Shown here: in pieces, positions 6,201 through 23,625 of the stretch
Layout: every line of letters starts with the position of its first letter
How positions within the stretch are numbered: the stretch's first letter is position 1
Source of the DNA: Akkermansia muciniphila
Lineage (GTDB): Bacteria > Verrucomicrobiota > Verrucomicrobiia > Verrucomicrobiales > Verrucomicrobiaceae
Direction: 5' to 3'
Length of the DNA stretch: 44,839 nt
NCBI GenBank assembly: GCA_945863205.1
Contig: CAMAZK010000010.1
Coordinates: forward strand, 1-44,839
Made by a program: the position numbers and the translations under genes
Notes under the pieces: model-generated
Told to the model about the DNA's origin: nothing
What the model saw: only the letters and a program-made list of their open reading frames with translations
The model's database searches: none

Positions 6201-8160
6201 GCCTGTTGACCCCAGTGCCCGCCCCATTGGCGACGACTCCGGTGATCACAGTGTCGCCCGTGCCGCCGAGGGTCAGGGTGCGGGCCGTGGCACTTACGTC
6301 GTTGGTGATGTTCACAGCGCCCAAGGTTAGCTTTTTGCCGCTGGCCAGGGTGTTTCCAAGGGTGCGATCACCGCCGGTGTTGCCGGTGACTGTCCCGTTG
6401 ATGGTGATATCCTGCGCCCCCTGGAACACCCCTGCAACGCTGGTTGTAGTGTTCAAGAGGACGTTGTTGGAGAGCGTGCGCCCGGCATTCAGGGCCTCAA
6501 TCCTACCCGTCGTGAGGGTGAGCGTGCCGCTGGCCAGGCCGCCGTTGCTGGTGCTATTGAGCTGCAGCAGGGTCGGCAAAAGACCGCCGTTGCCGCCATT
6601 GATCGTTGTCGTGCCTGCCGAGCTGTTGGAACCGGTGAGGGTCAAGGTGCGGCCGCTAAGCGTCGTCAGGCCGTTGTAGCTGTTGCTGCCGGAGAGCGTG
6701 AGTGAGCCCGTTCCATTGTAGGTCAGATTGCGCGTGGTGCCGCCACCGTTTGAGATGGTGCCGGCGACCTCGGTCGCGCCCGAGCCGCTGAACACGGTCG
6801 TCATGCTGGCGGTGGCGGCGTTGTTAAGCACGAAGTTGGTAAACTTCAGGGTCTTTCCCGCGGCGATATTGTTGAGGATCATCTGATTGTCGTTCGTCTG
6901 GTTCACCGTGGCATTGCCGGTGAACTCGATGCTGTTGTTCCCGCTGAACGTGTAGCCGGTGCCGCCGCTGGCGCTCGCGAATGACAATTGGTTGGTGATC
7001 GCGTTCGCGCTCGTGAGATCCGTCGAAGCCTGGAACGTGGATGCTCCACTCAGCCATGACATCGTCCCGGTTCCGAGCGCGTTTTGGTGCCCCAAGATCA
7101 CCGTGATAGCACTCGCTGACCCGATGCTCACCGCTCCGGTCACATTGGCCCCGGCCGCTTCCTTGATCCAGATCGTGCCTGCGTTGCTGCCGTCCCTGAG
7201 CTCTACAGCCCTACCCGAGATGTTAGCGTCGAGCTTTCGCAGCGTCAACCTCCCCCCGGTAACGCTGATAGAGGCAGCATTATTTATGGAGAAGACCCCT
7301 GTCGTTTCGCCGACCCCAGTGGTCCATCTAAAGGTGTTTTGAGTTAAGTTGATGTTATTAGCGAAGGTGACCGCCGCGCCGCTGGTATTGCCCGCCGACC
7401 CGTTGGACCAGGTTAATGTGCCCGTGCCGAGGGCGTTGTTGTTATTGATGTAAAGCACGCCGCTGTGGGCAGCCGTAGCGTTTATACCGCCATTAAACGT
7501 GTTGTTGCCGGAGAGGAGCCACGTGCCGCTGGTGTTTCTGACCAAGCCGAACGTTGTCGCTGAGCCATTGGAGATGTTGCCGGTGACGGTGTTGATGCCC
7601 GTGTTCGTGCCGCCCAAGGTCAGCGTCACCGTGTTGGTGGTCGTCCCGCCGGAAATCGCGCCGCCGAAGTTCAGGGTGTTGGTCGCACTGGTGTTGTTGT
7701 TGGCAAAGGTGTAACTACCCGCTGAGGTCGCGTTAAGCGGCGCCAGCACAATCGGAGCGTTGATGGAAATGGCTTTTCCCGTGCCCGTGAGGCCGGACAG
7801 AATCTGAATCGTGCCGCCATTCGAGAGGGTCAGCTTATTGCCACCCGTGGCACCAATGGCGAAGCCGCCGGAGGCCGTGCCGGCACTGGTGTCAAAGGAA
7901 ATGCTGGTCACCGTCTGGTCGGCCACGGCATTTGCGACCGAGGTGAGGGCCGTGTTAAAAAGGGCCGTGCCCGACGCGGCAGGCTTGCTCCCAGTTGACC
8001 AATTGGTGCCGGTGTTCCAGTCGCCGCCGCTCGTGCCGGTCCAGATGACCTGCGCGGCCGCGGGCCGCGGCAGGCCGAGTAAGATAGCGCTCAGCCCGAG
8101 GGACCCCGCGATGCATGTAGCGAGCGGGCGGATGGAATATCGGCGTCGGTTGGATTTCAT
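3238..8160 (-). CDS. giant PATR beta-strand repeat protein with PEP-CTERM anchor
   Basis: A 1,640-aa exported protein. Residues 1-36 form a signal peptide (MKSNRRRYSIRPL, then a hydrophobic core ending PAAAQ). The mature start VIWTGTSGGDWNTGTNWS is the usual opening of autotransporter-associated beta-strand proteins. The body is Ser/Thr/Gly/Asn-rich with repeats of the form 'GxGTLTLGGTxTYTGxTTVNxGTLVL' (clear examples near residues 920-960, 1310-1350 and 1408-1450). The last 25 residues form a PEP-CTERM sorting signal: IPEPSRALLLLLGSAGL followed by TRRRRKC. Exosortase should cleave and anchor or release the protein at the cell surface, but no exosortase gene is in this window. It probably forms a long beta-helical surface fibre. 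The gene follows repeat R1 and lies downstream of the TIGR03790 gene; the HTH/ParB genes follow almost immediately. Confidence 0.93.
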   Translation of the reverse strand: MKSNRRRYSIRPLATCIAGSLGLSAILLGLPRPAAAQVIWTGTSGGDWNTGTNWSTGSKPAASGTALFNTALTSVANAVADQTVTSISFDTSAGTASGGFAIGATGGNKLTLSNGGTIQILSGLTGTGKAISINAPIVLAPLNATSAGSYTFANNNTSATNTLNFGGAISGGTTTNTVTLTLGGTNTGINTVTGNISNGSATTFGLVRNTSGTWLLSGNNTFNGGINATAAHSGVLYINNNNALGTGTLTWSNGSAGNTSGAAVTFANNINLTQNTFRWTTGVGETTGVFSINNAASISVTGGRLTLRKLDANISGRAVELRDGSNAGTIWIKEAAGANVTGAVSIGSASAITVILGHQNALGTGTMSWLSGASTFQASTDLTSANAITNQLSFASASGGTGYTFSGNNSIEFTGNATVNQTNDNQMILNNIAAGKTLKFTNFVLNNAATASMTTVFSGSGATEVAGTISNGGGTTRNLTYNGTGSLTLSGSNSYNGLTTLSGRTLTLTGSNSSAGTTTINGGNGGLLPTLLQLNSTSNGGLASGTLTLTTGRIEALNAGRTLSNNVLLNTTTSVAGVFQGAQDITINGTVTGNTGGDRTLGNTLASGKKLTLGAVNITNDVSATARTLTLGGTGDTVITGVVANGAGTGVNRLTIWGGNVTLTQANTYTGATTLSAGTLVLDFSAAGAPTNNIINSGNSLVMSAGGLTLKGAGGAATNSQSVVMTNATGLSRIVVNNNGSTGTTTLALTSTGLGSRGANGATMNIDLSQGLGGNANANGNAITTTATAATLGWATVTDASGTGFARYNGTNVVRLTGQTTLLATSNASPTDFITSPGGTSTTGSPYLSLTAATPAYNTLTIDTSSATGANFLDLNGRTVTLSNRGVLLTGSNDFTIQGTGQLGAANSEVIVQQMGSGNLTINSAIGSGSTTLTKSGPGTLTLGGTQTYTGFTTVNQGTLVLNADISTAGNMAINEGTMRLGASDRISNSNAMTMKSGGTLDLNGFNETITSLAMDAGATINGGNSSTLTLSGATPITLNSGAGTGVTSVINANLNFSAATATLNPRQNAYGAATTLEINGAISGASTAILGSGSNAGAATLRLSGTTANTFTGSFGVQFGANGLVEFNKTAGVDAIGTGGINLSTANVSANYKWLASNQINDSAPIIMEGGTLNLNGFNETVASFTSGVTGGTGVSFINSSDGTLTLAGTTGNVLSLNNSLSNTSKTLDMNLALSGSGGNISFTSNASTNRTIQIGGTTPGARTFDLGSVVRTIDVADGAQAVDALITSQITGTGGFNKTGAGVLQLTAANTFSGDTKVSAGTLILGNNTQPLQNSALDTSGAGVVNITGLNALTLGGLKGSTNLTSVITTGYVGSLYSLTLNPGTGVTNTYSGVISDGAELSLTKTGLGTQVLSGTNTYSGTTTISNGALQIGSAGVGKTGTGAVTAQTGGTILGTGVVQGTSFTAQSGSTVQAGDGTAQSNYGTLTFTPASGSGSFDFQSGSSAVLGLNPGGTGDLLSFDGLSNGTLLFNGNLSVTAPGYNPVGVDTFNLLDWANLSTPTFHSRFSAGSYSGYLLGNGDDNLGFDLPDISTSGYGWDISAFITAGTISTVNLIPEPSRALLLLLGSAGLVTRRRRKC

Positions 8161-8306
8161 GGTATAGGGTTAGTTTTCGTATTGGGTTGGCTATCTCCGC
8201 GGAACTGAAAAGGAAGCCGATGTGGAGACGATGGCCCTTTTCTGAAGTGACTCGGGCGCACAAAAGGTTACGGACTTTTTTATTGTCCTGAATGAATGGC
8301 CGTTCG
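8127..8306 (-). repeat. cassette upstream repeat, copy R1 (truncated)
   Basis: Matches copy R3 from the first codons of the downstream gene (shared peptide MKSNxRRxSIxPL) through the 49-bp invariant block at 8228-8276 to GGCCGTTCG at about 8305. There it stops at the 3' end of the TIGR03790 gene. It fills nearly the whole gap between that gene and the PATR gene. Confidence 0.85.
8248..8276 (-). promoter_or_regulatory. putative ECF-type promoter in R1
   Basis: Read on the minus strand: AAAAAGTCCGTAACCTTTT with GTAAC at 8271-8267, then GAGTCA at 8253-8248 after a 13-nt gap. GTAAC resembles an ECF -35 core; the -10 assignment is a guess. Transcription would begin about 80 nt before the PATR start codon. 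The same block occurs in R2 and R3. Confidence 0.45.
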
Positions 8307-8315
8307 AAAACCCGC

Positions 8316-11300
8316 CTACGGCTGCGTGACCTGGACGCGGAGGAAGCGCTTGGTGATTCCCGGGGCGCCGATGACTTCGGTGTCCGGGACGGAGAGAATC
8401 ACGCTGGGGCTCAAGCCGCCGGGATAAGGGTCGGTGGCACTGCTCCAAATATTTGTCCAGTTCGCCAGATCGCTGCTGGCTTGCACGCGATAGGTAATGT
8501 CTGTCGCGTCACGCTGCCGCGGAAAGATGAGCGAGAGCCGGCCATCCACGATTTCCGTGTCAGTCAGGGGGCCGGTGTAGGCCGTCTGCGGATTCAGGCC
8601 AAACGCGTATTTCATCAGGTTGGGCACGCCGTCGCCGGTTGGGTTCGCTGCGGCTGCCATGTAGGCAGGCGGTGTGGTCGGCGGTTGGGCTGCGCAAAGG
8701 TTCGCGATCTCCGTGGCGGTGAGCACGCGGGGGATGAAGGCGACCTCATCCAGCGCGCCGTTGAAGAAGCTGATCGGCGTGGCGCTGCCGTCGGAGCCGA
8801 TCCGGAAGCCGGTGTCGCTGAAGTCGGAAAATGTCGCCACGATATTGCAGTCATTGGTGCCGCGCACATCGAACGTATTGACCTCCACGCCGTCGAAGTA
8901 GAAACGCGTGTAATCCGTTGTCCCAAAGGAGGGTAACTCGGGGACAGTGATCGCCAGGTGATGCCACTGCCCGTCGCAGATGCTGCCGGTGGGCAGATTC
9001 TGCATGGGGATCGAGAAATCGAGCTGCTTGTAATTCACCCCCTGAGGGGAGATGTAAATCCGCACCGCGTGCGGCACGCAGGCGGTGGCGTTGTTGGAGG
9101 CGCGATTGAGGGAAACAAAGAAGGTGGTCGGGCTGGCGTCGAGGCGTTTGCCGCCCACGAGGGTCATCTCGCGGTCGGTGACGCTGGTCTTGACGAACAT
9201 CGAAATCGTGAAGCCGCTCCCGAGCATGGAGCCGAGGCCGTTGGCGGTGCCGCAATTCACGGAAGCGCCGGCTGTGTAGCGTGGCGGCGTCGCGGTAACG
9301 GCCGTGCCGGTCGTGAAACTCAGCGCGTTGTTGCCGCTTTCCAGCCCCGGCCAGAGCGACGGTCGCGGTCCGGCCTGCGCCAGGGTGTAGTTGCCGCCGG
9401 TGCCGTTCTTGCCGAGGGTGCCGGTGGCGACGGTGGCCCCGTCGGCATCCACGCCAACCACGGCCGTGCCACTGGTTTCGCTGAAGCGGAACTCAAACAA
9501 CGGGCTAAGCGAGCGCAGTGCCGTCTCATAATCGAAGAAGAGAGGCAGGGCGGGAATCGCGGACGGCCACCAGGCCTTTTGCCACTGCTGATACGGCGCG
9601 TCCTTGATCGTGACCGTGCAAGCGTAATTCCAGCCAAGGGATGATGGCGTCGTATCCGGCGCCGTCAGAGTGATCGTGAAGGTCTCGTCGCCTTCGACGA
9701 GATTGTCGCTGAGGATCGGCACGCCGATCTGTTTGTCAGCGGTGTCGCCGTTGGTCCAGGTGAGCGTGCCGCTGACTGCGGTGAAATCCTGGCCCGCCGC
9801 CGCCGTCTGGGTTTCGATCGTGTAGTTGACCGTGAGGGGGCCGGCAAAGCTGTTTAAGCGTTGAACCGGAAGCGTAATGGAGCCCGCACTCTCCGTCACC
9901 GTTGCCGCGTCCTCGAAGAAGGCCGCTTGGCCGGCGTTGTCATCATCGAGGATGTAGCACCGAATCGGTTCGTTGGTGCTGCCCACCGGGCCGATTGAGG
10001 CACCGGTGGCGCTCGAGATGTTAAACTGAAATTCCTCGGTGTCTTCCGCGAGCGCGTCATTCACGATCGGCACGGTGATGAGGCGATCGCTGCTGTCGCC
10101 GTCGGCCCAGGTCAGGGTGCCGTTGTAGGAGCCATTGAGGGCCAGATAGTCAGCTCCTCTGGTGGCAGAAAGGGGTGATAAAGTCCAGCGCACCGAAGCG
10201 GCCCCGCTGCTCCCGCCCACGCGCCGGATGGTGAAGGTGGTGCTCCCCGCGTTTTCGGGAATATCCCTGTATTCGTCTCCGGTGCTCAAGACCTCACCGA
10301 TGCGAAGGGTGCCGCCGACAGGATTCACGACGGTGATCGTGGTGGGCACGCCGGTCAAAACGCTGCCGGACCGAGCGATGTTCAAGCGGAACTGGCGGCC
10401 ATTGTCGGCGGCCGTCACCGGGCCGTAGTTGAGAGTGGGGTAGTCGGTCGTCCTAAACACGGAGGTGGTGCCGGACAGGTTCTGCCAGCTCGCGCCGCCG
10501 TCGGCACTGGTCTGCCACTGAAAGGTTTGGTCCCCGTGGGGGAAGGATTTCTGGTAAACCACACTTTGGCCGACGTGGAGGGTCTGGTTGTCTAAAACGG
10601 CCTGGGTTGTCACCGCTCCGGCACCATCCACATGGAAAGTCTGCGTCTGGCTGGCCGTTGTGCCCGCGTGATCGGTCACGTCGAGTCGCACGGTGTAGTA
10701 GCCGGGAGCGGAGGCGATGCCGGAAACCTTAGTCCCTCCATCCGCGCCCAAGGCAAGTGTGCCGCCGGGAGGCGTGGAGAGCACACTCCAGTGGTAAGTG
10801 AGCAAGGCGATCGGGGAGTCCAAAGTCACAGTTCGGAAGCTACTGGTGAAGGTGATGGCGGTGGTATTTCCACTTTGCGCAATGCTGAAGAAGGCGTTTG
10901 GGCTTGCATTGGTCGCGATGGTGAGGTTGGGCGTCGTGGCGGAGCCGGTGCGGCCGTTGGTGCCGGTGGCCGTGAGGGTGCAGGTCGCATTGGCCGTGAG
11001 CGCTGAGAGCGAGACGAATTGCGCGGTCTCGCCGTTGGCGCTGATGTTCTGGAACGAGCCGTTGGGATCGGTGCTCGTCCAATTCACAGTCGGCTGGCCG
11101 GGCACGGTCGGCGTGATGTCGATGCGGCTGCCGAACTGGTCCTTGCTATAGGCCGACACATTCAGCGGCAGACCGCGCAACCAGTCAGTGTAGCCGTTGG
11201 TGGAGAGAACCATCGTCGGAGCACCGGCCTGCACCGTCACGGGAATGGTTGTAAAGGCGCTGTCGGTCGCCCCGGCAACCCTCAGCCCGAACACATAGTT

Positions 11301-13784
11301 GCCCGTCTGGGTAAATGTCACGGTGGTGACCGGCTGGCCAGCCGCGCCGGTTACCGAGAAGGTTACCGGTTCCGGCCCGCTGAGCTGTGACCAGTGATAA
11401 GTCAGGCCGGCCCGCTCCGCTGGCGTGCCGCCGCCAATCGTGGCGTTGGCCGTGAGGGTCATATTTGTGGTGGTGACCGGTGAAGTGGAGGGAGTGATGG
11501 AAAGGATCTGCGGCGTGGTGGCCGGGGAGCCGGTGCCCATGCTGGCAGAGAGCGACGGGATGATAAGGCTGAAATCCTGGCTGCTGCCGCCGCGTAGGCC
11601 AACCTGCGTGGAGGTCCAATTGTTATTGGTTAAAGTTGCCCGCATGCGCAGTTCATGCCAACCGGGAGAAAGTCGTCGTGGCCCAAAAACATAATCATAT
11701 TGTGGCAATGTGACCCCATCGATAGCGACAGAGGCTGTGCCGCTGTTATTCCAGGCTTGGTTCAACACGCCCACTTCATAGAAATCGTCTGTCGGCGCAT
11801 AAAACCAGCACTTCACTTCATAGCCTGGCTTGAGGGTTGCAACCGTCGTGCTATTGAATGTGATTCCGGGAATATTGGTCGGTGTGATAGAGAGGCCTCG
11901 GGTTGACTGAGTTACCCAGACTTGGGATCCTGTTGTGTCATTCCCAGTGAAGGTCGTAGTAACATTCGGCGGGCTCGTATCCCAATTGAATCCTATGCCG
12001 TTCGTGCTGTTGAAGTAGCGCACATTCGCCTGTGCACCGCCGAGCGCCACATTTGTGGCCGCCGGCTGCGCCGGCCAGTCCACCGTTGTGGTGAATGGAG
12101 CGCTCCAAACTTGCTGCCCGTTGCTGCGTGTGCCCACGGCGTAGACGCTCCACTTGTTTGCCAACGGGGCAAGGGAGCCACTGATATTTGCGGAACCACC
12201 GCTGGTCGGCAGTGTGGCCAGCGTGCGGCCATTGGCCTGCAGAGTGAGGGAGGTGAGGTCTCCCAGACCGACCGGCGTCACCGTGAATGTGGCGTTGCCA
12301 TCTGGATTCACGGTGGCTGGTCCGTTTAATGCGAGAGATTGCCCGGCGTTGCTGACTTTGATCGTTCTCACTGCCTCGTTCTGGGTGCGGACGGAATCGT
12401 TGTTATAGGCCACCACACGCACATCGTGCCAACCATCGCCAAGCGTTGCGGTGTTCACGGTGAACCCTCCCACCGTGCGAGTGGCGGAGATGGTTTCTCC
12501 GGCTTGCCCGATGGCGATCCGACGGCCATCGATGAAAAGATCCAGATTCGACTCGAGCGTCTTGCCTCCGGTGGGCGCGGCGGTGGCTGCGATGAGCACA
12601 TTGCCGCTCACCGTTGCCCCCTCAGCAGGCGAGGAAATCGAGACATTTGGGAAATCGGCAAATGTTTGTAGCAGAGGATCGCCGAGGCAGATGATCTCCG
12701 CTGGCAAATCAATGGACTGCCAGAAAGCCTCGACCAGCGATGCGCCGGCGCGCAGATGGGTGTGGATATGCGCATGCGGAAATTTATCAGGAACAGCCAG
12801 GGGCTCTGCGAACGTTCCGGAACTGCCGTCGGCGCCCGCGCGCAGCCATTTGCTGCAAGGGTCCTGGCCCTGCCCGAAGCCGTCAAGCGCGCCGCCCGTG
12901 CTGGTGAGGTGGTCCACCCATGCGCCAGGGAAATACGTGTTGCCTCTATCGGTAAAATGGATGGTGCCTACCACGCCACCCTGGATGTCCGCCCGGTCGG
13001 AAACCCAAGCTTCCCCGACGATGGTGACTTGATAGCGGATGCCCCGCAGCTGCCAGACATCCTTCACATCATCGATTTCGAAGACGCGCGTTCCGCTGCG
13101 GATATCGTTATTCAGCGGCCAGTAGATCGTGCCGCCGGCAGGCTTGGCGCCGTCGCGGGCTTTTGCCCGGGCGATAAAACCGAGGATTTCCCGGAGGCTG
13201 TTACCTCTTTTCCCGGGAAATCCAATGCTGCTGACCGGCCAGTAACGCTTGCCGGAGAAAGTGCTTGTCGCCGTCAGCGCTACCGTGCCATTCGGGGCCG
13301 GGCCATTGATCGCCGCCGGGTTGGCATAGGCGGTATTCCAAGTGGGGCCCCGGGGGGCAGAGGCATAGCTGTAATTCGGAGAGTTATAGAGGAAACTGTG
13401 CAGGGACAGTCCCTCTACATCGGGAGTGGTCGTGGCACTGTTCAGCGGGGTGACCCCGGCGAGCGCGATGCCCTGGAGCTGCGTGTCGAGCCCGCGCGCC
13501 TTGAGCGTCGCACGGAGAGAATACACGAAATCCAATGCCGTCGTCCTGCTGAAGACTGTCGGAAACGCATACGGCACCATGTTGTGCTCCGGGATGCCTC
13601 GCACTTGCTGGTATTCATTGGCGATCGTCACCGACCGCGGATCGTTCGGGTTGTAAACAACAATGATCCCAGTCGGTCCGCCGCCGGCGTGGCCGCGGGG
13701 ACACAATCCAAAGAGAACCGCAAGGGCAACAAACACCCGGAGGAAGGTTCCTTGCATGATTTTCGTGGAGGCAAAAACGAACAT
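8316..13784 (-). CDS. TIGR03790-type giant multidomain secreted protein
   Basis: A 1,822-aa protein. The signal peptide ends near residue 34 (VALAVLFGLCPRGHA). Residues 38-370 form the TIGR03790-type domain: IIVVYNPNDPRSVTIANEYQ, RGIPEHNMVPY, IHFTDRGNTYFPGAWVDHLT, GADGSSGTFAEP, EIICLGDPLLQTF. Then come Ig-like segments (ISSPAEGATVSGNV), a PA14-like region (KCWFYAPTDDFYEVGV near 680), PKD/Ig-like repeats, two Calx-beta domains (ENAGSTTFTIRRVGG and ESAGSITLPVQRLN, about 1180-1430), a LamG/concanavalin-like domain (about 1450-1700, DGQWHHLAITVP) and a C-terminal verrucomicrobial domain (GDGVPNLMKYAFGLNP). TIGR03790 function is unknown. The added domains suggest adhesion or carbohydrate binding outside the cell. 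Alternative start ATG 13757 (MQGTFLRVF) gives a tidier signal peptide. No PEP-CTERM tail is present. Confidence 0.88.
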   Translation of the reverse strand: MFVFASTKIMQGTFLRVFVALAVLFGLCPRGHAGGGPTGIIVVYNPNDPRSVTIANEYQQVRGIPEHNMVPYAFPTVFSRTTALDFVYSLRATLKARGLDTQLQGIALAGVTPLNSATTTPDVEGLSLHSFLYNSPNYSYASAPRGPTWNTAYANPAAINGPAPNGTVALTATSTFSGKRYWPVSSIGFPGKRGNSLREILGFIARAKARDGAKPAGGTIYWPLNNDIRSGTRVFEIDDVKDVWQLRGIRYQVTIVGEAWVSDRADIQGGVVGTIHFTDRGNTYFPGAWVDHLTSTGGALDGFGQGQDPCSKWLRAGADGSSGTFAEPLAVPDKFPHAHIHTHLRAGASLVEAFWQSIDLPAEIICLGDPLLQTFADFPNVSISSPAEGATVSGNVLIAATAAPTGGKTLESNLDLFIDGRRIAIGQAGETISATRTVGGFTVNTATLGDGWHDVRVVAYNNDSVRTQNEAVRTIKVSNAGQSLALNGPATVNPDGNATFTVTPVGLGDLTSLTLQANGRTLATLPTSGGSANISGSLAPLANKWSVYAVGTRSNGQQVWSAPFTTTVDWPAQPAATNVALGGAQANVRYFNSTNGIGFNWDTSPPNVTTTFTGNDTTGSQVWVTQSTRGLSITPTNIPGITFNSTTVATLKPGYEVKCWFYAPTDDFYEVGVLNQAWNNSGTASVAIDGVTLPQYDYVFGPRRLSPGWHELRMRATLTNNNWTSTQVGLRGGSSQDFSLIIPSLSASMGTGSPATTPQILSITPSTSPVTTTNMTLTANATIGGGTPAERAGLTYHWSQLSGPEPVTFSVTGAAGQPVTTVTFTQTGNYVFGLRVAGATDSAFTTIPVTVQAGAPTMVLSTNGYTDWLRGLPLNVSAYSKDQFGSRIDITPTVPGQPTVNWTSTDPNGSFQNISANGETAQFVSLSALTANATCTLTATGTNGRTGSATTPNLTIATNASPNAFFSIAQSGNTTAITFTSSFRTVTLDSPIALLTYHWSVLSTPPGGTLALGADGGTKVSGIASAPGYYTVRLDVTDHAGTTASQTQTFHVDGAGAVTTQAVLDNQTLHVGQSVVYQKSFPHGDQTFQWQTSADGGASWQNLSGTTSVFRTTDYPTLNYGPVTAADNGRQFRLNIARSGSVLTGVPTTITVVNPVGGTLRIGEVLSTGDEYRDIPENAGSTTFTIRRVGGSSGAASVRWTLSPLSATRGADYLALNGSYNGTLTWADGDSSDRLITVPIVNDALAEDTEEFQFNISSATGASIGPVGSTNEPIRCYILDDDNAGQAAFFEDAATVTESAGSITLPVQRLNSFAGPLTVNYTIETQTAAAGQDFTAVSGTLTWTNGDTADKQIGVPILSDNLVEGDETFTITLTAPDTTPSSLGWNYACTVTIKDAPYQQWQKAWWPSAIPALPLFFDYETALRSLSPLFEFRFSETSGTAVVGVDADGATVATGTLGKNGTGGNYTLAQAGPRPSLWPGLESGNNALSFTTGTAVTATPPRYTAGASVNCGTANGLGSMLGSGFTISMFVKTSVTDREMTLVGGKRLDASPTTFFVSLNRASNNATACVPHAVRIYISPQGVNYKQLDFSIPMQNLPTGSICDGQWHHLAITVPELPSFGTTDYTRFYFDGVEVNTFDVRGTNDCNIVATFSDFSDTGFRIGSDGSATPISFFNGALDEVAFIPRVLTATEIANLCAAQPPTTPPAYMAAAANPTGDGVPNLMKYAFGLNPQTAYTGPLTDTEIVDGRLSLIFPRQRDATDITYRVQASSDLANWTNIWSSATDPYPGGLSPSVILSVPDTEVIGAPGITKRFLRVQVTQP

Positions 13785-13804
13785 GTTAAAATGAGCTCGC
13801 TCTT

Positions 13805-13934
13805 ACGATGGCCCTTTTCTGAAGTGACTCGGGCGCACAAAAGGTTACGGACTTTTTAATTGTACTGAAGGAATGGCCGTTCGGGACGGGCTGGAATCCG
13901 ATGCGTTCCCCGTGTCGAGCCGAAAGTGCCCATC
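13805..13934 (-). repeat. cassette upstream repeat, copy R2
   Basis: Shares the invariant block (13805-13853) with R1 and R3 and continues for about 80 bp of further similarity to R3 (GGGACGGGCTG, CGAGCCGAA, GTGCCCATC). It lacks the gene-proximal half present in R1 and R3: similarity stops at ACGATGGCCC, 21 bp before the TIGR03790 start codon at 13784. Confidence 0.85.
13825..13853 (-). promoter_or_regulatory. putative ECF-type promoter in R2
   Basis: Identical block to those in R1 and R3: AAAAAGTCCGTAACCTTTT on the minus strand (GTAAC at 13848-13844) and GAGTCA at 13830-13825. It would give a leader of about 30-60 nt before the TIGR03790 gene, depending on the start codon used. Confidence 0.45.
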
Positions 13935-14059
13935 GCGCACTCGCGCTGTAGTTCGGCTTCCAGCTCGTGTTCCTCGCCGTAGGACATGCCTCCAGCTTGG
14001 CCTGGGGGGCCTCCCTCAGCAAAACCACCAGCCCTATCCGTGACCACATCGTTCACCAT
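13856..14059 (-). CDS. possible 67-aa ORF ending inside repeat R2
   Basis: Starts at ATG 14059, 10 bp after the cassette D stop (MVNDVVTDRAGGFAEGG) and ends ARPERPFLQYN within R2. The last 25 codons are also open in R3 with the same stop. However, about half of the codon differences between the two copies change the amino acid, so protein-level selection is not evident. It may be a by-product of the repeat. I know of no family. Confidence 0.25.
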   Translation of the reverse strand: MVNDVVTDRAGGFAEGGPPGQAGGMSYGEEHELEAELQRECAMGTFGSTRGTHRIPARPERPFLQYN

Positions 14060-14069
14060 TTTCGGCTTC

Positions 14070-14645
14070 TCACGGCCGGAAAGATCTGACATTGCCGTTG
14101 AGCGGGTCGATTTGAATGGTGATGTAGTTCGGCGGAAGCGTGGTGTTCGTGGCCTCTCGATCCCTGACGAGCGTGGCATACCATCGCGACGAAGGGGGCA
14201 GATCCGTCGATCCATCCGGGCGGAACTTGAAGCTGTTGTAGTCGCGGGATGAGGAATCTATGCCCGGACCATTGGTGAGCAGAGTCGAGTAGCTCGTCCC
14301 GTTCATCGTGGCGGTGGACAGGCTGGTGCCGTTGGAAAAATAGGTTAGTTCGGCAAGTTGATTAGTGATGCCGAAATCTGTGATCTGGTAGAGGGCATAG
14401 GCGCAGTAACTCGCCGAAATGCCATCGCTGGGCATAACCTTGTAAAGGCGAAATTCCACGGGGGTGGACTTCGCGAGGGCGAGTTGGCGCGCAAGCCGCA
14501 GGCCGCCGGAAAGGGACTCGGAAGCCGATGTGAGTCGCTGTCCATCCGCAATCCCATTCCAGGCGGGCACAGCGATGGCGATCAATAGGCCGATGATCGA
14601 GATCACGACTAGAAGCTCCACTAGGCTGAAGGCGTTTCTTTTCAT
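14070..14645 (-). CDS. Verru_Chthon cassette protein D (GspH-like pseudopilin)
   Basis: A 191-aa protein with a prepilin leader: MKRNA, then FSLVELLVVISIIGLLIAIA. Cleavage is expected between A5 and F6, leaving N-methyl-Phe and Glu at +5. The next segment, LSGGLRLARQLALAKSTPVEFRL, is the pattern of GspH/FimT-type minor pseudopilins. The C-terminal part (SRWYATLVRDREA, NYITIQIDPLNGNVRSFRP) is a beta-rich globular head. It matches the TIGR02596 concept (cassette protein D). The gene begins 6 bp after cassette C and is the last of the four-gene unit. It is probably an inner-membrane-inserted subunit of a pseudopilus-like assembly. Confidence 0.85.
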   Translation of the reverse strand: MKRNAFSLVELLVVISIIGLLIAIAVPAWNGIADGQRLTSASESLSGGLRLARQLALAKSTPVEFRLYKVMPSDGISASYCAYALYQITDFGITNQLAELTYFSNGTSLSTATMNGTSYSTLLTNGPGIDSSSRDYNSFKFRPDGSTDLPPSSRWYATLVRDREATNTTLPPNYITIQIDPLNGNVRSFRP

Positions 14646-14651
14646 AGGGTC

Positions 14652-15767
14652 TCAATCGTTGCTCCACTTGGCTCCGCGAATAGCAACCACGGTCCGGTAA
14701 ACGCGGTAGTTCACTCTTTGAGCCGTGAGATTCCTTTCCAGTGTTGCGAGGTCGGCATCCACATCCGAAGAGGAGGAAAGGGTTTGGAAAAGATCGCCCT
14801 GCCCGAAATCCGGCGGGTTGGCACCGTTGGCTGCCGCCAGTCTTTGCGCGGAGCTTTCATCGATGACGACCATGATCGCTTCGACCAGCGGCGGCAGTTG
14901 ATGGAGTGTGGTGCCGCTTATTGGCCCTCCGGACGCCGGGGTTGCCGAGAAGGCTTTTGCGGAGCGGGAATCGTAATGGTAGTCGGTCTTTACCAGCGCC
15001 GCACCGCTAGGATCCTCCGTCGAGGAGAGTTTGGGGATGATCACCAGGGCGATCACGTTTTCAGCCAGCACGCTCACAGGCCTGTCTTTTTCGGCCACGG
15101 TAGCGGTAAATCCAAGCGGGTCGGTGAACCACTTCGTGCGCGCGGTCGTCGCATCCGGGGTGTATATCTCCAGGTTCTCCGAGGGCTGTTGCATCTGCAT
15201 CAGCCGATAGCGGTAGCGAAGGGGAATATTCGTCAGGCCAGCCAGAAAATCCGGTCGCAGGTTCTCATCGCTTCCAAATTCCAGGAAGAATCCCACGGCG
15301 TTGAGGATGTTGGTAAGCGGATCGAGCGTGGAGTTCGATGAAAAGCCTGCGGGGACCTGGAAAAATAGGGCACCCGTCGGGCGCTTCAAGGCATCGTTGG
15401 CTGCTCCAAATAAATCCTTTGTCGGACCCGAGCGGAAGTGCAACTCCGACTGCCGCCCATACTTCGCCGGCGTGCCGCTGTATGCGCTGTCGTTGGCGGG
15501 TTTCCCGTCGCTGTCGTAATAGTCCCAGTAAGTGTTCAGGGTCGCCTGGGAGATCGTCCGCGTGAGCGCCTCGAATCCCGCCCGGGCACCCTGATAGCTT
15601 TCCACTTGGTCACGCGTTCTTCTGGTCATCGAAGACACGGTCTGCACCATGGTCGAAACTAAAACGCCCAAAAGAAGCAGCAGCGTCATCGAGACCAACA
15701 GCTCGATGAGCGTGAATGCTCTGTGGCCTTTCCTGGCCAAGCGGCGGCGGCTTTGCTTATCGTCCAT
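14652..15767 (-). CDS. Verru_Chthon cassette protein C (GspJ-like pseudopilin)
   Basis: A 371-aa protein with a prepilin leader MDDKQSRRRLARKGHRA before FTLIELLVSMTLLLLLGVLV, keeping Glu at +5. GspJ-like features follow: a long amphipathic helix (TRRTRDQVESYQGARAGFEA, LTRTISQATLNTYWDYY) and a large beta-rich head. It matches the TIGR02599 concept. The start at 15767 overlaps cassette B by 11 bp; a longer start at 15788 would add MSCSFLT before the basic leader and is less likely. At 371 aa it is much longer than typical GspJ (about 200 aa). It ends 6 bp before cassette D. Confidence 0.85.
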   Translation of the reverse strand: MDDKQSRRRLARKGHRAFTLIELLVSMTLLLLLGVLVSTMVQTVSSMTRRTRDQVESYQGARAGFEALTRTISQATLNTYWDYYDSDGKPANDSAYSGTPAKYGRQSELHFRSGPTKDLFGAANDALKRPTGALFFQVPAGFSSNSTLDPLTNILNAVGFFLEFGSDENLRPDFLAGLTNIPLRYRYRLMQMQQPSENLEIYTPDATTARTKWFTDPLGFTATVAEKDRPVSVLAENVIALVIIPKLSSTEDPSGAALVKTDYHYDSRSAKAFSATPASGGPISGTTLHQLPPLVEAIMVVIDESSAQRLAAANGANPPDFGQGDLFQTLSSSSDVDADLATLERNLTAQRVNYRVYRTVVAIRGAKWSND

Positions 15768-16194
15768 TGTCAGGAATGAACACGACATGGGTTGAGGCCT
15801 CGCTGTTCGTATTGGGGAGGCGATGGATGGCGATCGTCACCGACGCCAACCCGCGGAGAGTGACCGGAGATGTCGAGGAGGGAACGCCCACCAGACCGGT
15901 GCTTAATACCGCCTCGTAGATGGCGTCGGTTGAACTCAACATCCCGCTATTATCAAATTGGTATTTCGTTCCGTTAAGGGTGCCCAACAAAGAGAAATCT
16001 GTTTGCTGTGCGGTGTTGGCGACTGATTTGATAATTTCGGCCCGCAGGGAATCATTTCTCGCATCCCGAATCGTGTTGAGTCCGATCGGCATCAGGCCCA
16101 CCAGCCCCACCAGCACAAAGCTCATCAGGCCGAGAGCCACGACGACTTCGACAAGGCTGAATCCCCTGCGCGCTGTGGAAGGATACGTTTTCAT
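15757..16194 (-). CDS. Verru_Chthon cassette protein B (GspI-like pseudopilin)
   Basis: A 145-aa protein with a prepilin leader MKTYPSTARRG before FSLVEVVVALGLMSFVLVGL. Cleavage is expected after Gly11, with Glu at +5. The length and the helical segment after the membrane stretch (LNTIRDARNDSLRAEIIKSV) fit GspI-type minor pseudopilins and the TIGR02598 concept. Its ATG overlaps the TGA of cassette A as ATGA, and its end overlaps cassette C by 11 bp, so A, B and C are probably translated in a coupled way. Confidence 0.85.
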   Translation of the reverse strand: MKTYPSTARRGFSLVEVVVALGLMSFVLVGLVGLMPIGLNTIRDARNDSLRAEIIKSVANTAQQTDFSLLGTLNGTKYQFDNSGMLSSTDAIYEAVLSTGLVGVPSSTSPVTLRGLASVTIAIHRLPNTNSEASTHVVFIPDNGR

Positions 16195-19100
16195 GGATTG
16201 AACTGCTTTGTGTTGATCACCCGGAACTTGTAGGGCCCGAGCGTTGAGGTTGAGTCGGTGATATCAAATGCCGAGGCCTTTGGATCCAGAAACCGCTCGA
16301 TGATGAATGACCCGCGATACCCGGATGTGACGGTGTCCTTCGTCTGGTCAAATGTCTGCGGATCCGCCCCCCGTCGCTTCTTCAGTTTTTGAACCCGCAG
16401 ATGCACTGTGTAGGTGTTCGATTTCGTCGTCACGCGCGGATAGATGGTGGTGTAGGGGCGCTCCCGGAGATTGTCAGCCGTGCCAGCCCCACCCAAACTG
16501 GTGTTTGCCCAGAAGCCATCCACGTAAGTCTGGACCTGGGAGGCGGTGGCATTTGCGGACAGCGCCGTCTGGAACGGGTTCTTTGAAGCCGGCACGAGCC
16601 CTTTGGCGTTCACATTTTCCGGCTTTGGCACCAGGGGCATCTCGCAGATCTGGGAGGCGGTCAGGAAGGGGGTGTTGTCCGTGAAGCGCTTCTCGAAGAG
16701 CTTCATCGTCGCGTCGCGGTCGATGTTGTAGCGGTAGTTGAAGGTAGCGTCGCTGGAATTCGTCCCGTCCGGATTCAGTGTGATTAAAAAGGCGTTGCTG
16801 GTCGGCACCGCGGTGATCTTTTCCGGATAGAGCACGCCGCGAAGCGCGGTCGAGCGCTTGATGTAGCTGAAGGGGGCGATCTGCCAGTTCAGGTTCACCT
16901 TGCCCGCCGTCGAGAAGGGCTCGCTGATGGCGTAAGGCTCCACCACCGGCATCTGGAAGAGATCCAGGATGAGGTGGTCCGGTGGGTTGACGGCGCCGGG
17001 ATGGGCGGGAGAGTTGGGCCGGAAAAGCAGGGTCTGCCATGGCATCCCGCGCTTGACCCCCACGGGGAGGGAACCGAACATCCCTGGCGAGGGCATCATG
17101 CGATTGGGGGTAAACGCGTTGTCCAGGGAAGCGATCATCGCACTGACTTGGAAGTAAGGAAGTGAGGGCCTGCCGCTGCCATCACGGAAGGACGCCGCGC
17201 CGTCGCTCGGTTTATTGATGAAGGCGCCCGCTTCTGGGAAACCTGCGCCGAAAACGTCGACCCGGGCGACCCCCGCATCCCAGTCGCCGGGGGTGCCATC
17301 GCTCCGGGTCGCGGCAGTCATGGTGCTTGGCAGCCCGAATAAGATCTGGGCGGCGCTTCCTGAGGCGGCGCTGACTCCGGCAACCAAGCTGCCATTCGTG
17401 GCCTGCGGATGGCCCCACAGGCTGTGTGCCTGATTCCTGGCGGAATTATCATATCCCGCACACTTTTGAAAATAGCTGGCCGGGACATTCTGAAGCCCGG
17501 CCACCAGTCGCGCATCGCCATAGGGAACCGCAGAGGCGTTGAGTTCGATGCCCCGAACCGTGTCGAGATTGTTTGGCATCAGGCACATCGCCAGATTGAT
17601 CCCAAGATTTGCGGGGGAAGGTAAAGTATATCTCATGGGGCTGTTTTCACCCCCCGCTCCAAGAGCCACGCGATTATCCCACCGCGTGGTAACTGTCGCG
17701 GTGGTCCCGCTGACTGCCACTTGCCTGCAATCTATTAAGCGAAAAGGGCTTGCTGGCGTCAGCGTAACCGGTGCCCATAGCGGCATGGGAGCGGTGAAAT
17801 TCGGGAACTCCATTTTCACATTCTGCACCACCTGGTTGTCCACAAGGATGTCGATATCCAACGTGCCGCCTGTGAAGTTCAAAGTGTTTCCTGAGACCGG
17901 GATGTTGCTCTGGCTGAAAAAAGGATAAGAGTTGGAATTGGCTCCGGTGGGCGTGATGCCGCCACGCTGAACGGCGTTATAAGTTCGGGTGCTGGGATTC
18001 ACGTTACCCCCGCCAAATAACAGGTTGTCCCAGAGCGCGAGCCCTGATCCTTCCACCGACCGATGGGGAAGGCCCAGGACGCGGTTGATGGCACCATCGG
18101 TCATGTTGGCGGAGGCACCATTGACCTTGAAAGAAGACAAACCGCTATTAACACGGATATCGTAGGTGTGGGTGATCGTCAGCGGCCCCGCAGAGGGGTT
18201 GGCAACCGAAAATAGCAGAACCCCTCGGATTTGTCCGGCGGGTTGCGAATTGTTCGCAGTCCAACTGGCGAGCTGACTTCGAGATAAAGAGTGTGGGCTT
18301 GGAAAAGGTTGATAAGTCATCTTTGCAAAATCAGCGGGAGTTTTTCCCGGATTCGTGTCGGTGGCAAAAAACCCAAGGGTCGCTCCGACAATCGTGGGGA
18401 ATCGGCCGAACCCCCTTGTGGTGCCGCTGGCTGCGGGAGCGCCGATCACTGCGGGGACGACCTGTCCGCCATATGCAGACGCGACATAGTAGGCCAAGGG
18501 CAAATTCCAGACTGCGGGGTCGCGTGGCAACGGGAGTGATTTCAGGCATCCACTGGTATTGCCGGCTCCGACCAAGCGATTGGCCTCATTCCAATAAAAG
18601 AAACGCCCGGTATATGGCTTCGCATTGGCATCGCTGCAGTCGAAGAGGTTGCTGGAGCGGATGTAGTCGTAGATCTCCGTGAGGATCTGATCACTGTCGG
18701 TCCCGAATTTGGAGGCGAGGCTGTCCCCGAAACCGGGGTAGGGTTTGGCCATCAATTCCTTTAGGTAACTGTAGAGGGTGGAATTGTTTGCGGTGAAATC
18801 CAGGGTGGCACTCTGCGAGCCGGTATTGGAGGCTCCTGTAAAGGAGCTGTTATCCACCAATCCGATTTTCATCGGATCGAAAGCCGATCGCTGGAAAATA
18901 TACTCGCGTCCACCGACCTTGGAGCAGAAGGCGATGGTTTTATCGAACACGGTGCGGTCGGTCGCTTTGGAGTCCACGGGCCAAATCGTGACTCGGGGTG
19001 TATTGAAAGCAGTGACTTCAGGGGCGCGGCTGTTTGCCGTGAGGAAGAACCTCGCAAGGCTGAGGTTTACGGGCGTCAGGCTCATCGCGGGTGTTGCGGG

Positions 19101-20249
19101 TGTTGCGGGTGTGCCCGTGCCTGAGGTCGCCATCCCCGTCCTGCTTGTGTCGTCGATTCCAGGCTGTTTGTAGAAGAGCTCATCCACGGTGGCGTAGAGC
19201 CGGTCCTTGTCCAGCGTCACGGTGCCTCCCTTCGCCGTTGTGACGGGGAATTTGGTTCCCAACTCGGAGCCGCCCCAATTGGTGCGGGGCGCGAGTTCGA
19301 GAATTTTCTTGGATCGATCCTCCGCCGTCAGGGAAGAACTGAAGAAGGCGGTGTTGTTAAACACGACGTCCAGCGAAGTCATGGCCGGGTGGCCGGGGTA
19401 TCTCTGAAACTCCCGGACCGCCGGCGGGGAGGAGGCCAGGCCCGTCCTCGTGACAACGGGCAGGCTGTTTGCTGCGCCTGCTGCAAACGTGCCCCGTTCG
19501 AATTGGTTGCCTTTGCCGATCGGTTGATCCCAATACATGCCGGAGCTCGCCGTGTTGATGTTCAGCTTGCAGGTTTCGTCATCGGCCCAGAAAGCGATCC
19601 GGCCCACGATCGGGTTGGTGGCCGAGGCGAGGGTCACTTTGCCCGTGTCATCCATCGCCTGGAGTTGACCGTCTTTGAGCACGTAGAGCCAGCGCACCGG
19701 CATCGGGATTTGTGCTGGATTCCCCTGGATCGTGGTTTTTGCGACCCCGCTGCTTCCCGAGGTTTCGGTGAACCCTTCCACCACATCAAGCGCCGCCGGG
19801 TCCAGGATGGGATAAACCCACGTGCTGTTGACTTTCACCGGCGCATTCAGGTCGGTAAAGAGGTTGCCATTCAACTCTCCTCCACCCGTGGGAACATCTG
19901 CGAGCGATGCCGGATTGAAGGCGCTCCCGGAGACGACCATCTCCTGGGCGGAATAGAGTTTATATACCCGGTCAGGCTGCTTGGCGCCGGTGAAGGTCCG
20001 GATGGCGCCCGGCTGGGAAATCCAGGCGTTGGTTCCCGTGGTGGCCTCGCGGATCTGGGCGGTCACCAGACTCAGGACATTTTCGCTCAAAAGTCGCGTC
20101 TCGGTCTGGTTGATCTGGGAGCCTGCTGCGGTGCGCTCGGTTTTCGCGCTGGCCAGGACGGCGAGTATGAGTACGCTCAAAAGCACGATGGCCGCAAGCA
20201 CCAGCACAAGAGCCATGCCTGAAGAGTGATGGCTGATCCGACGGCGCAT
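16191..20249 (-). CDS. Verru_Chthon cassette protein A (giant GspK-like pseudopilin)
   Basis: From ATG 20249 this is a 1,352-aa protein. The leader MRRRISHHSSG precedes MALVLVLAAIVLLSVLILAV, a prepilin-like membrane helix without Glu at +5, as in GspK of type II secretion. The body is a very large soluble region with repeated beta-strand character and sequences such as GRIAFWADDETCKLNINTAS; 'xDDExxxNINTA' is typical of GspK/cassette A proteins. It matches the TIGR02600 concept. Frame continuity allows an earlier ATG at 20333 (MKSNLRRFSILPL), but those codons belong to repeat R3 and match the leader of the PATR protein, so I prefer 20249. It is the first gene of A-B-C-D and is preceded by the R3 promoter block. 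Confidence 0.87.
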   Translation of the reverse strand: MRRRISHHSSGMALVLVLAAIVLLSVLILAVLASAKTERTAAGSQINQTETRLLSENVLSLVTAQIREATTGTNAWISQPGAIRTFTGAKQPDRVYKLYSAQEMVVSGSAFNPASLADVPTGGGELNGNLFTDLNAPVKVNSTWVYPILDPAALDVVEGFTETSGSSGVAKTTIQGNPAQIPMPVRWLYVLKDGQLQAMDDTGKVTLASATNPIVGRIAFWADDETCKLNINTASSGMYWDQPIGKGNQFERGTFAAGAANSLPVVTRTGLASSPPAVREFQRYPGHPAMTSLDVVFNNTAFFSSSLTAEDRSKKILELAPRTNWGGSELGTKFPVTTAKGGTVTLDKDRLYATVDELFYKQPGIDDTSRTGMATSGTGTPATPATPAMSLTPVNLSLARFFLTANSRAPEVTAFNTPRVTIWPVDSKATDRTVFDKTIAFCSKVGGREYIFQRSAFDPMKIGLVDNSSFTGASNTGSQSATLDFTANNSTLYSYLKELMAKPYPGFGDSLASKFGTDSDQILTEIYDYIRSSNLFDCSDANAKPYTGRFFYWNEANRLVGAGNTSGCLKSLPLPRDPAVWNLPLAYYVASAYGGQVVPAVIGAPAASGTTRGFGRFPTIVGATLGFFATDTNPGKTPADFAKMTYQPFPSPHSLSRSQLASWTANNSQPAGQIRGVLLFSVANPSAGPLTITHTYDIRVNSGLSSFKVNGASANMTDGAINRVLGLPHRSVEGSGLALWDNLLFGGGNVNPSTRTYNAVQRGGITPTGANSNSYPFFSQSNIPVSGNTLNFTGGTLDIDILVDNQVVQNVKMEFPNFTAPMPLWAPVTLTPASPFRLIDCRQVAVSGTTATVTTRWDNRVALGAGGENSPMRYTLPSPANLGINLAMCLMPNNLDTVRGIELNASAVPYGDARLVAGLQNVPASYFQKCAGYDNSARNQAHSLWGHPQATNGSLVAGVSAASGSAAQILFGLPSTMTAATRSDGTPGDWDAGVARVDVFGAGFPEAGAFINKPSDGAASFRDGSGRPSLPYFQVSAMIASLDNAFTPNRMMPSPGMFGSLPVGVKRGMPWQTLLFRPNSPAHPGAVNPPDHLILDLFQMPVVEPYAISEPFSTAGKVNLNWQIAPFSYIKRSTALRGVLYPEKITAVPTSNAFLITLNPDGTNSSDATFNYRYNIDRDATMKLFEKRFTDNTPFLTASQICEMPLVPKPENVNAKGLVPASKNPFQTALSANATASQVQTYVDGFWANTSLGGAGTADNLRERPYTTIYPRVTTKSNTYTVHLRVQKLKKRRGADPQTFDQTKDTVTSGYRGSFIIERFLDPKASAFDITDSTSTLGPYKFRVINTKQFNP

Positions 20250-20299
20250 GGTAAAGGGCCCCATTTTCGGAGCCTCATCGGCCTTCCGGCAGGAGAGCG

Positions 20300-20529
20300 G
20301 AAGGATGGAAAATCGGCGTAGGTTGGATTTCATGGCGTGGGATTAGTTTTCGCAGTGGGCTGGCTATCTCTGCGGAACTAGAAAGGAAGCCGACGTGGAG
20401 ACGATGGCCCTTTTCTGAAGTGACTCGGGCGCACAAAAGGTTACGGACTTTTAATTGTCCTGAATGAATGGCCGCTCGGGACGGGCTGAAATCCGGTGCA
20501 GTCCGCGTATCGAGCCGAACGTGCCCATC
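20300..20529 (-). repeat. cassette upstream repeat, copy R3 (fullest copy)
   Basis: The only copy holding both halves. The gene-proximal half matches R1 (including the MKSNxRRxSIxPL codons and GGCTATCTC), the invariant block lies at 20401-20449, and the distal half matches R2 (CGGGACGGGCTG to GTGCCCATC). R1 and R2 could each be partial duplicates of this unit. The remaining 20530-20678 contains no recognised feature. Confidence 0.85.
20421..20449 (-). promoter_or_regulatory. putative ECF-type promoter in R3 for cassette A-D
   Basis: Minus-strand AAAAGTCCGTAACCTTTT (GTAAC at 20444-20440) and GAGTCA at 20426-20421. It faces cassette A, and the divergent sigma-factor gene lies on the other side of the same intergenic region. 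Confidence 0.45.
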
Positions 20530-20678
20530 TCACCGCTGTGGTGTCCCCTGCTCAGTGAAGTGAAGCAGGTGAAGTGCAGGTTGAAAAGTTTCCCGCACCC
20601 GGGGCGCGGTGGTTGTCATCGCGGCCTCATTGCGTCGGTGCCGGGTTGGGAGATCGCGACTTCTTTTTCGATCCCGGA

Positions 20679-20695
20679 AAAAGTTGGTAACTTTT
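20679..20695 (+). promoter_or_regulatory. palindrome / putative autoregulated promoter of the ECF sigma gene
   Basis: AAAAGTT-GGT-AACTTTT is a perfect 7-bp inverted repeat 25 bp before the sigma start codon. Preceded by one more A, it reads AAAAAGTTGGTAACTTTT. This differs from the R1/R2 block AAAAAGTCCGTAACCTTTT only at two bases and one extra C. It is therefore a candidate -35 element recognised by the sigma factor itself, or an operator. Confidence 0.45.
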
Positions 20696-20720
20696 CGCCA
20701 CCTTTTAACACTACTTCCTG

Positions 20721-21284
20721 ATGCACGATAACTCCGCCCAAGACAGACAGCCCCCCGACGACGCCCTTGATCGGCAGGTGCGGGCCTTTCTCGATTGCCG
20801 CCCGCTCATTGAGGGGCACATCGCCGCGCTCGTGCGGGATCGGGCGTTGGCGGATGATGTCTTTCAGGAAGTGTGGGTGCGTTTCGAGCGCGTGACGCGA
20901 CGCGGCGAAGTCATCGCCAATGTGCCTGCGTGGTGCCGGGCGGCGGCGCGGCTCGTGGCCCTCGAGAGCTGGCGCGAGCAGCGGCGCGAGCAAGGGACGC
21001 CCGATCCCGAACTCCTCTCGCTGGTGGACCGCGCCTACCAGGAGCAGGACGGGCAGGAAGAATTGTGGCACAAGAAATCCGAGGCTCTGGGCACCTGCAT
21101 TGATGAACTCCCGCCGCGCTCACGTGATCTCGTCGTCCGCCGTTACCGCAAGGGCGACCCCATTTCCACCATCGCCGGGCAACTCGGCCAGAGCGTTACG
21201 AGTGTAAAGACTGCGCTCTGCCGCCTGCGCCTCGCGCTCGGCGATTGCGTGCGCAAGAAACTCAACCATTTGGAGGCGATCTGA
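20721..21284 (+). CDS. ECF-type RNA polymerase sigma factor
   Basis: A 187-aa protein of typical ECF length. Region 2: RPLIEGHIAALVRDRALADDVFQEVWVRF (about residues 28-56), with the DDVFQEVW core of region 2.2. Region 4: LPPRSRDLVVRRYRKGDPIS followed by the HTH TIAGQLGQSVTSVKTALCRL (about 130-172). Such factors direct RNA polymerase to specific promoters and are usually held by a membrane anti-sigma factor. The next gene, 1 bp downstream, encodes a FecR-like membrane protein. It is divergent from the cassette A-D operon, whose upstream repeat resembles this gene's own upstream palindrome. ATG 20721 is the only start that keeps the region 2 N-terminus. Confidence 0.93.
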   Translation: MHDNSAQDRQPPDDALDRQVRAFLDCRPLIEGHIAALVRDRALADDVFQEVWVRFERVTRRGEVIANVPAWCRAAARLVALESWREQRREQGTPDPELLSLVDRAYQEQDGQEELWHKKSEALGTCIDELPPRSRDLVVRRYRKGDPISTIAGQLGQSVTSVKTALCRLRLALGDCVRKKLNHLEAI

Positions 21285-21285
21285 T

Positions 21286-22776: not shown

Positions 22777-22790
22777 CGCATCACTTTTTC

Positions 22791-23528
22791 ATGAAACTCT
22801 CTCTTCTCATCATCACCGCATTTTTGTCCCTGACGCTGGCACCCACCTGGAGTGCCGAACCCGCAAACCCGCCGCCCGTCCCGCTCAAGTCCGACTCAAA
22901 GGAGTGGCGATTTTATCCCGCTGCCCGCGAAGCCGGAAAAGCCCGCGTCCTGCTCATCGGCGACTCGATCATGAACGCCTACCGCCACCGCGTGTCGGCG
23001 GCGCTCAAGAACCGGGCTACAGTGGATGTGTGGCTCACGCCCATCACCATCAAATCGCCGGAATTGTATGATGACCTCCGGACGGTTTTGGAGCAGGGCC
23101 CGTATGACGTGGTGCATTTCAACATCGGCCTCCACGAGTGGATGAAGGGCTACATCCCCGAGGGTCAATACGAGCCGCTGCTCCGTGCTTACGTGAAAAC
23201 GATTCAAGCCCACGCCGGCCACGCAACACTCATCTGGGCGAGCACAACGCAGATGACCGTGAAGGGGCAGCCCACGGCGCTCGACCCCGACAACAACCCC
23301 AGGATCGTCGAGCGCAACGGCATCGCCGCCCGCGTCATGCAGGAAGTCGGGATCACCGTGAATGATCTCTACACTCTCATGGGCGACAAACTCGCGCTCG
23401 GCAAGGGCGACAAATACCACTGGACCCCAGAAGGCTCCGCAGTCCACGCCGACGCGGTGACTGCGAGCATCGGCGCGGCTTTGGAGAAGCGGAGTCCCGC
23501 CTCAACGACCATTTCCGCTCCGCGATGA
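22791..23528 (+). CDS. secreted SGNH/GDSL-type hydrolase
   Basis: A 245-aa protein with signal peptide MKLSLLIITAFLSLTLAPTWSA. Block I: VLLIGDSIMNAYRHRVSAAL with nucleophile Ser in GDSI. A middle block HFNIGLHEWM carries the Asn/Gly position. Block V: DKYHWTPEGSAVHADAV with the Asp-x-x-His dyad. All expected SGNH positions are visible. Relatives act as esterases or acetyl hydrolases on polysaccharides; the substrate here is unknown. It lies 14 bp after the FecR gene and probably belongs to the sigma operon. Confidence 0.85.
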   Translation: MKLSLLIITAFLSLTLAPTWSAEPANPPPVPLKSDSKEWRFYPAAREAGKARVLLIGDSIMNAYRHRVSAALKNRATVDVWLTPITIKSPELYDDLRTVLEQGPYDVVHFNIGLHEWMKGYIPEGQYEPLLRAYVKTIQAHAGHATLIWASTTQMTVKGQPTALDPDNNPRIVERNGIAARVMQEVGITVNDLYTLMGDKLALGKGDKYHWTPEGSAVHADAVTASIGAALEKRSPASTTISAPR

Positions 23529-23557
23529 AATGTTTCCAAACAATCGCCCTGACTCTC

Positions 23558-23625
23558 GGTAGGCTCCCATGCGCTTGGGCGGGACGACACGCGGGGAGCG
23601 GAAGGGAAATTAGGGCTGTCCTACC
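23558..23625. repeat. inverted-repeat element between SGNH and DUF1592 genes
   Basis: The 107-bp gap 23529-23635 holds GGTAGG at 23558-23563 and CCTACC at 23620-23625, with a GC-rich middle (GGGACGACACGCGGGGAGCG). The frame through this gap is open but gives a poor protein (GRLPCAWAGRHAGSGR), so I treat it as an intergenic element, not part of the next gene. Confidence 0.4.

Follow-up and report, generated by a model that had tools for sequence, protein, structure and literature searches.

Verrucomicrobiota genomes repeatedly encode Verru_Chthon cassettes, TIGR03790 proteins and PATR/PEP-CTERM proteins, and when they are produced is undescribed in the literature searched. In the window analysed here, that is, the whole stretch of 44,839 nucleotides, units of all three kinds lie on the minus strand, and the same short DNA block stands in front of each of them. 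What is this block, and which regulator, if any, reads it? The original prediction was that a promoter-like element, held by selection, ties the three units into one regulon. The genes concerned are the following.

3238 to 8160, minus strand: giant PATR-repeat protein with a PEP-CTERM tail, 1640 aa, candidate target 1 (TIGR02601, TIGR02595, PF12951)
8316 to 13784, minus strand: TIGR03790 protein with PKD and Calx-beta domains, 1822 aa, candidate target 2 (profile matches)
14070 to 14645, minus strand: Verru_Chthon cassette protein D (TIGR02596)
14652 to 15788, minus strand: Verru_Chthon cassette protein C (TIGR02599)
15757 to 16194, minus strand: Verru_Chthon cassette protein B, pseudopilin-like (TIGR02598)
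16191 to 20333, minus strand: Verru_Chthon cassette protein A, candidate target 3 (TIGR02600, 871 bits)

The gene identities that had been proposed were borne out by profile matches to PATR repeats and PEP-CTERM, TIGR03790, and Verru_Chthon A, B, C and D. The four adjacent Verru_Chthon genes all scored above their respective cut-offs, the TIGR03790 protein exceeded its curated cut-off (70.2 vs 67 bits), and the C-terminus of the PATR protein (residues 1616-1639) passed the PEP-CTERM cut-off of TIGR02595 (21 vs 16 bits). Adjoining the PATR gene, at 2070-2957 on the minus strand, is a gene whose product matches the phage family phrog_5931.

The blocks stand where the original prediction placed them, but their length had been given as 49 bp and is 52 bp: ACGATGGCCCTTTTCTGAAGTGACTCGGGCGCACAAAAGGTTACGGACTTTT, on the plus strand, is identical in the three copies. 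They face the genes on the minus strand, as had also been stated, with 86, 39 and 86 nt between the putative -10 element and the ATG of the PATR, TIGR03790 and Verru_Chthon A genes, respectively.

8228 to 8279, minus strand: block R1, candidate promoter of the PATR/PEP-CTERM gene, with the motif GTAACCTTT-N12-TCAC at 8271-8247; identical to R2 and R3
13805 to 13856, minus strand: block R2, candidate promoter of the TIGR03790 gene, with the motif at 13848-13824
20401 to 20452, minus strand: block R3, candidate promoter of the Verru_Chthon A-D cassette, with the motif at 20444-20420
8122 to 8279, minus strand: first copy of a 158-nt repeat holding promoter, leader and first codons
20295 to 20452, minus strand: second copy of this repeat, 91% identical to the first

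R1 and R2 are spaced 5577 nt apart, and R2 and R3 6596 nt. A 30-base core of the block matched the window three times at up to three mismatches, and it had no match in 100 dinucleotide-preserving shuffles. The genome-wide search that the original prediction called for yielded these three copies only, before the PATR/PEP-CTERM, TIGR03790/Calx-beta and Verru_Chthon A-D units; no fourth core was present in the 4.95-Mb assembly, which is 78.75% complete and could be missing further copies. At up to three mismatches, the core was absent from 55 relatives.

The surrounding DNA is shared as unevenly as had been described, R1 and R3 having the downstream leader in common (the 158-nt repeat) and R2 and R3 the upstream side. 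Mismatches between R1 and R3 fall at 0 of 49 positions inside the block and at 15 of 109 outside it (Fisher p 0.006). The N-terminus of the Verru_Chthon A ORF, MKSNLRRFSILPL, resembles the start of the PATR protein, MKSNRRRYSIRPL; the promoter was thus copied along with the start region.

Divergent from R3 lies an operon headed by an extracytoplasmic function (ECF) sigma factor. This sigma gene, the FecR-domain gene behind it and the matching promoter at 20687 had no place in the original account.

20687 to 20711, plus strand: candidate promoter of the sigma gene itself, GTAACTTTTCGCCACCTTTTAACAC; top-ranked site of the window, its motif standing before five orthologues
20721 to 21284, plus strand: ECF sigma factor, 187 aa, with sigma2 and sigma4 only (Pfam Sigma70_r2 and r4_2, TIGR02937, above cut-offs)
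21286 to 22776, plus strand: probable membrane anti-sigma factor with a helical N-terminus, one hydrophobic segment and a FecR domain (PF04773)
22791 to 23528, plus strand: GDSL-like hydrolase of the sigma operon (PF13472)
23525 to 26395, plus strand: planctomycete-type cytochrome/PSD protein (domain matches to PSCyt1, PSD2-5 and PSCyt3)
26402 to 27790, plus strand: DUF1552 protein (PF07586)

ECF systems are marked by a sigma factor with sigma2 and sigma4 alone, an AAC in the -35 element, an anti-sigma factor encoded alongside, and autoregulation (PMC8103513). Pfam places sigma2 at residues 26-89 and sigma4 at residues 121-173, and the two are joined by a linker of fewer than 50 residues, as in Group IV; no PDB chain matched the protein by phmmer at E 0.001. 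Its candidate promoter aligns without gaps with GTAACCTTTTGTGCGCCCGAGTCAC of the block, and since the putative -10 ends 9 nt before the ATG, the sigma transcript may be nearly leaderless.

The FecR-domain gene starts 1 nt downstream of the sigma gene, and the domain is above its gathering cut-off (31.7 vs 24 bits). Structure prediction gave four helices at the N-terminus (residues 2-62) followed by a hydrophobic helix (82-100), the model being of modest quality (about 75 over residues 1-42) and the full-length fold unusable (pLDDT 37). In a Foldseek search of the PDB, MucA, RsiW and RslA were among the best resemblances of this N-terminus, all of them weak and non-significant (E >1). The protein is probably the anti-sigma factor of the adjacent sigma.

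Five orthologues of the sigma factor were compared, including the window's own (G000, 100%): L103 (93%), G013 (68-69%), G062 (66%) and G120 (59%). L103 is contig CANIWM010000022.1 of a Chthoniobacteraceae MAG, whose assembly also bears the labels G495 and G089. Directly upstream of the sigma gene, 5/5 orthologues carry a GTAAC[C/T]TT motif with the same spacing: GTAACTTTTCGCCACCTTTTAACAC in the window's genome, GTAACTTTCCGCCGCCTTTTAACAC in L103, GTAACCTTTATGCCTCTCGCATCAC in G013, GTAACCTTTCCCCGTCTCGCATCAC in G062 and GTAACCTTTTGCAGTCTCGTGTCAC in G120. None of about 37 sigma paralogues (at most 38% identity) has it. The orthologues also share a sigma4 helix, S[VIL]KTA[LM]CR[LV]R, which is different in the paralogues, and other sigma clades have other conserved sequences at the same upstream position. 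GTAAC, with the AAC expected at -35, occurs in all blocks and sigma promoters, and TCAC or ACAC follows at the spacing expected of a -10; the CGT that is a non-obligatory hallmark of early ECF groups was not found there. A search for sigma-70-like promoters at the blocks gave none.

Genome-wide, the exact block-derived motif GTAACCTTT-N12-TCAC has three occurrences in the window's genome, all of them at the blocks. Its sole site in G089 is the PATR promoter, in G013 and G062 it is confined to the sigma promoter, and G120 has it at the sigma promoter and at one other site. This last site (G120:C64) lies at the start of an unrelated ORF and is probably a chance match. A weight matrix was built from the sigma promoters of G013, G062 and G120 alone, with no window sequence in it. 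Among about 89,600 window positions it ranked the sigma promoter (17.4) and the three blocks (16.8 each) as the top four; the next site, at 14.9, lies inside a gene. On about 859,000 unrelated positions, a single site exceeded 14 bits, at 14.6. The motif points toward the gene in 10/10 cases.

We therefore consider it probable, at roughly 85%, that the blocks are ECF promoters of the divergent sigma gene's product and that the three units and the sigma operon make up one regulon. The regulon of the original prediction thus gains support from the motif before the adjacent ECF sigma in five genomes and from the confinement of the exact motif, in its own genome, to the three blocks; the regulator reading the blocks is probably the sigma encoded at 20721-21284. 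Against this reading count the -10, which is TCAC or ACAC and not CGT, the commonest ECF form, and the absence of the motif from relatives of Verru_Chthon A elsewhere. Among the best local matches to Verru_Chthon A (at most 40% identity), neither the motif nor the sigma gene was found nearby, and the Verru_Chthon cassette as such is, judging by these relatives, not a general target of the sigma.

From the sequence we infer sigma binding, the transcription start sites, the action of the anti-sigma factor, its signal and co-expression of the units. The proposed sigma would recognise a -35 GTAAC(CTTT) and a -10 (G)TCA(C) separated by a spacer of 15-16 nt. The membrane FecR-type protein would probably keep it inactive until a surface signal sets it free. 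Once free, the sigma would drive its own operon from 20687 and would act at the three blocks to drive the PATR/PEP-CTERM, TIGR03790/Calx-beta and Verru_Chthon A-D units. The three copies would be duplicates of the original intergenic promoter DNA, made when cargo genes arrived at the locus, with selection preserving the core from then on.

An operator for a dimeric transcription factor could look similar, as GTAAC-N15-GTCAC is an imperfect inverted repeat and the two ends form an imperfect dyad both in the blocks and in G120. The dyad is not kept in the orthologues, however: G013 and G062 have ATCAC as its right half, and G000 and G089 have AACAC. The conserved CTTT is present on the left half only, the orientation is always toward the gene, and the motif tracks the sigma orthologues. 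The one-sided CTTT, the loss of the dyad and the constant orientation make this explanation unlikely.

The blocks might also be recent duplications without any shared regulatory role, carried along as flanking DNA when the genes were copied in. In favour of this, R1 and R3 share 158 nt that include the PATR start codons, and Verru_Chthon A and TIGR03790 were beside the sigma gene in none of the other genomes examined; it is thus a single genome that supports their place in the regulon. The sister locus L103 speaks to the matter. Over the sigma operon and the PATR gene it is 83-91% identical to the window in nucleotide sequence (3877-8305 and 20656-27799), and the 30-bp core is observed without a single change among R1, R2, R3 and the L103 PATR promoter, whereas the flanks differ by 13-36% (Fisher p from 0.046 to 1e-5 for core against flank across the four copies). 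The motif, moreover, agrees with the sigma promoters found in other species and families. Duplication without function is thus improbable, about as much so as the dimeric operator or slightly more. The claim that selection holds the core is supported by the L103 comparison, with the amendment that recent promoter duplication explains some of the identity, so R1-R3 are not independent copies.

That the block is the end of a mobile element, a recombination site or an RNA leader element is very improbable: it does lie at the junctions of inserted genes, but it has only three copies in the genome, the motif also stands before sigma genes with no such repeats nearby, there is no Rfam match, and the leader folds no better than shuffles.

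If the blocks are ECF promoters, L103 also hints at how such a regulon grows. Neither TIGR03790 nor Verru_Chthon is present at that locus. Between its PATR and sigma genes lies instead a gene for an 1830-aa LTD/CotH/PKD protein (L103:4336-9828, plus strand). In front of it stands GTAACCTTCCGCCCCCTTTTAACACC, which copies the sigma-type promoter together with the first sigma codons. The weight matrix picked exactly three sites in L103, at the promoters of the PATR gene, the sigma gene and this giant gene. Newcomers to the locus have thus repeatedly come to lie behind a duplicate of one half of the divergent promoter region. The promoter DNA was evidently duplicated along with the cargo genes.

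The locus itself seems to have a different history from its flank. The asparagine synthase gene on the right (41270-43213) is 75-89% identical within the window's genus and 38-39% identical in G495, which belongs to the same class and a different family. The sigma, largely missing from the window's genus, is 93% identical to that of G495. This discrepancy indicates horizontal transfer of the sigma locus between lineages. The whole sigma region of 26 kb lies between an intact LysR-type regulator gene (730-1680, plus strand) and a second copy without its N-terminus (27866-28504, plus strand). The two genes match at 90% identity over 300 nt and may be the borders of an island. We found no empty insertion site, relatives in the genus being syntenic only from about 33,890 on, and no plasmid record encoding a relative. 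Taken further, and offered tentatively as one possibility, the system would be a horizontally moving plug-in regulon, in which the sigma/anti-sigma pair travels between Verrucomicrobiota lineages. Halves of its divergent promoter region would be duplicated together with each newcomer, bringing different giant surface proteins into the regulon, so that the cargo changes and sigma control is kept.

Autoregulated ECF regulons with local targets are clearly a known kind (Group IV; PMC8103513). Like them, the present system combines a sigma2+sigma4 protein with an adjacent probable anti-sigma gene, AAC at -35, a motif before its own gene and target genes nearby. Unlike them, it has TCAC or ACAC in place of CGT at -10, it is predicted to control giant secreted proteins and a pseudopilin cassette, and its promoter DNA is duplicated with cargo genes. 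The best NCBIfam match of the sigma is TIGR02989 (Sig-70_gvs1, the Rhodopirellula/Verrucomicrobium family), which covers nearly its full length at 96.4 bits; this is short of the 124.55 bits of the curated cut-off, and the protein is therefore not a formal member. The order of an ECF sigma followed by a FecR-domain protein recalls FecI/FecR cell-surface signalling; here, however, no transducer receptor is seen beside the sigma, the FecR domain is missing in three orthologues, and the motif precedes the sigma's own gene, whereas autoregulation is said not to extend to FecI-like ECFs (PMC8103513). Control of a PEP-CTERM gene by an alternative sigma factor, as proposed here, is described in Aquincola, where the factor is sigma-54 (RpoN) and not an ECF sigma (PMC9850573).

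Literature searches on Verru_Chthon and on ECF/FecR in Verrucomicrobia returned nothing relevant, and this sigma, its promoter and its targets appear to be undescribed in the literature searched. The locus supplies a candidate for the regulator, an explicit sequence for the promoter and a list of targets that can be tested. It also suggests a route of regulon growth, with promoter DNA copied along with each arriving gene and the locus passing from one lineage to another with changing cargo.

In another sigma clade (L090, L091, L092, L093 and L099), a different conserved sequence, AACTTTGTCCACCTTTCGCGGGTTCATGGAACA, stands just upstream of the sigma start, which suggests that many ECF sigmas of Verrucomicrobiota have autoregulatory promoters specific to their clade.

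Further along the contig that carries the PEP-CTERM gene, the plus-strand genes at 37660-43213 encode a MurJ-like flippase, a double glycosyltransferase and an XrtA/PEP-CTERM-type amidotransferase-like protein, and form part of an exopolysaccharide/exosortase-type cluster. Within the glycosyltransferase gene, a 156-nt direct repeat (39818-39973 vs 40946-41101, 71%) reflects two related glycosyltransferase halves.
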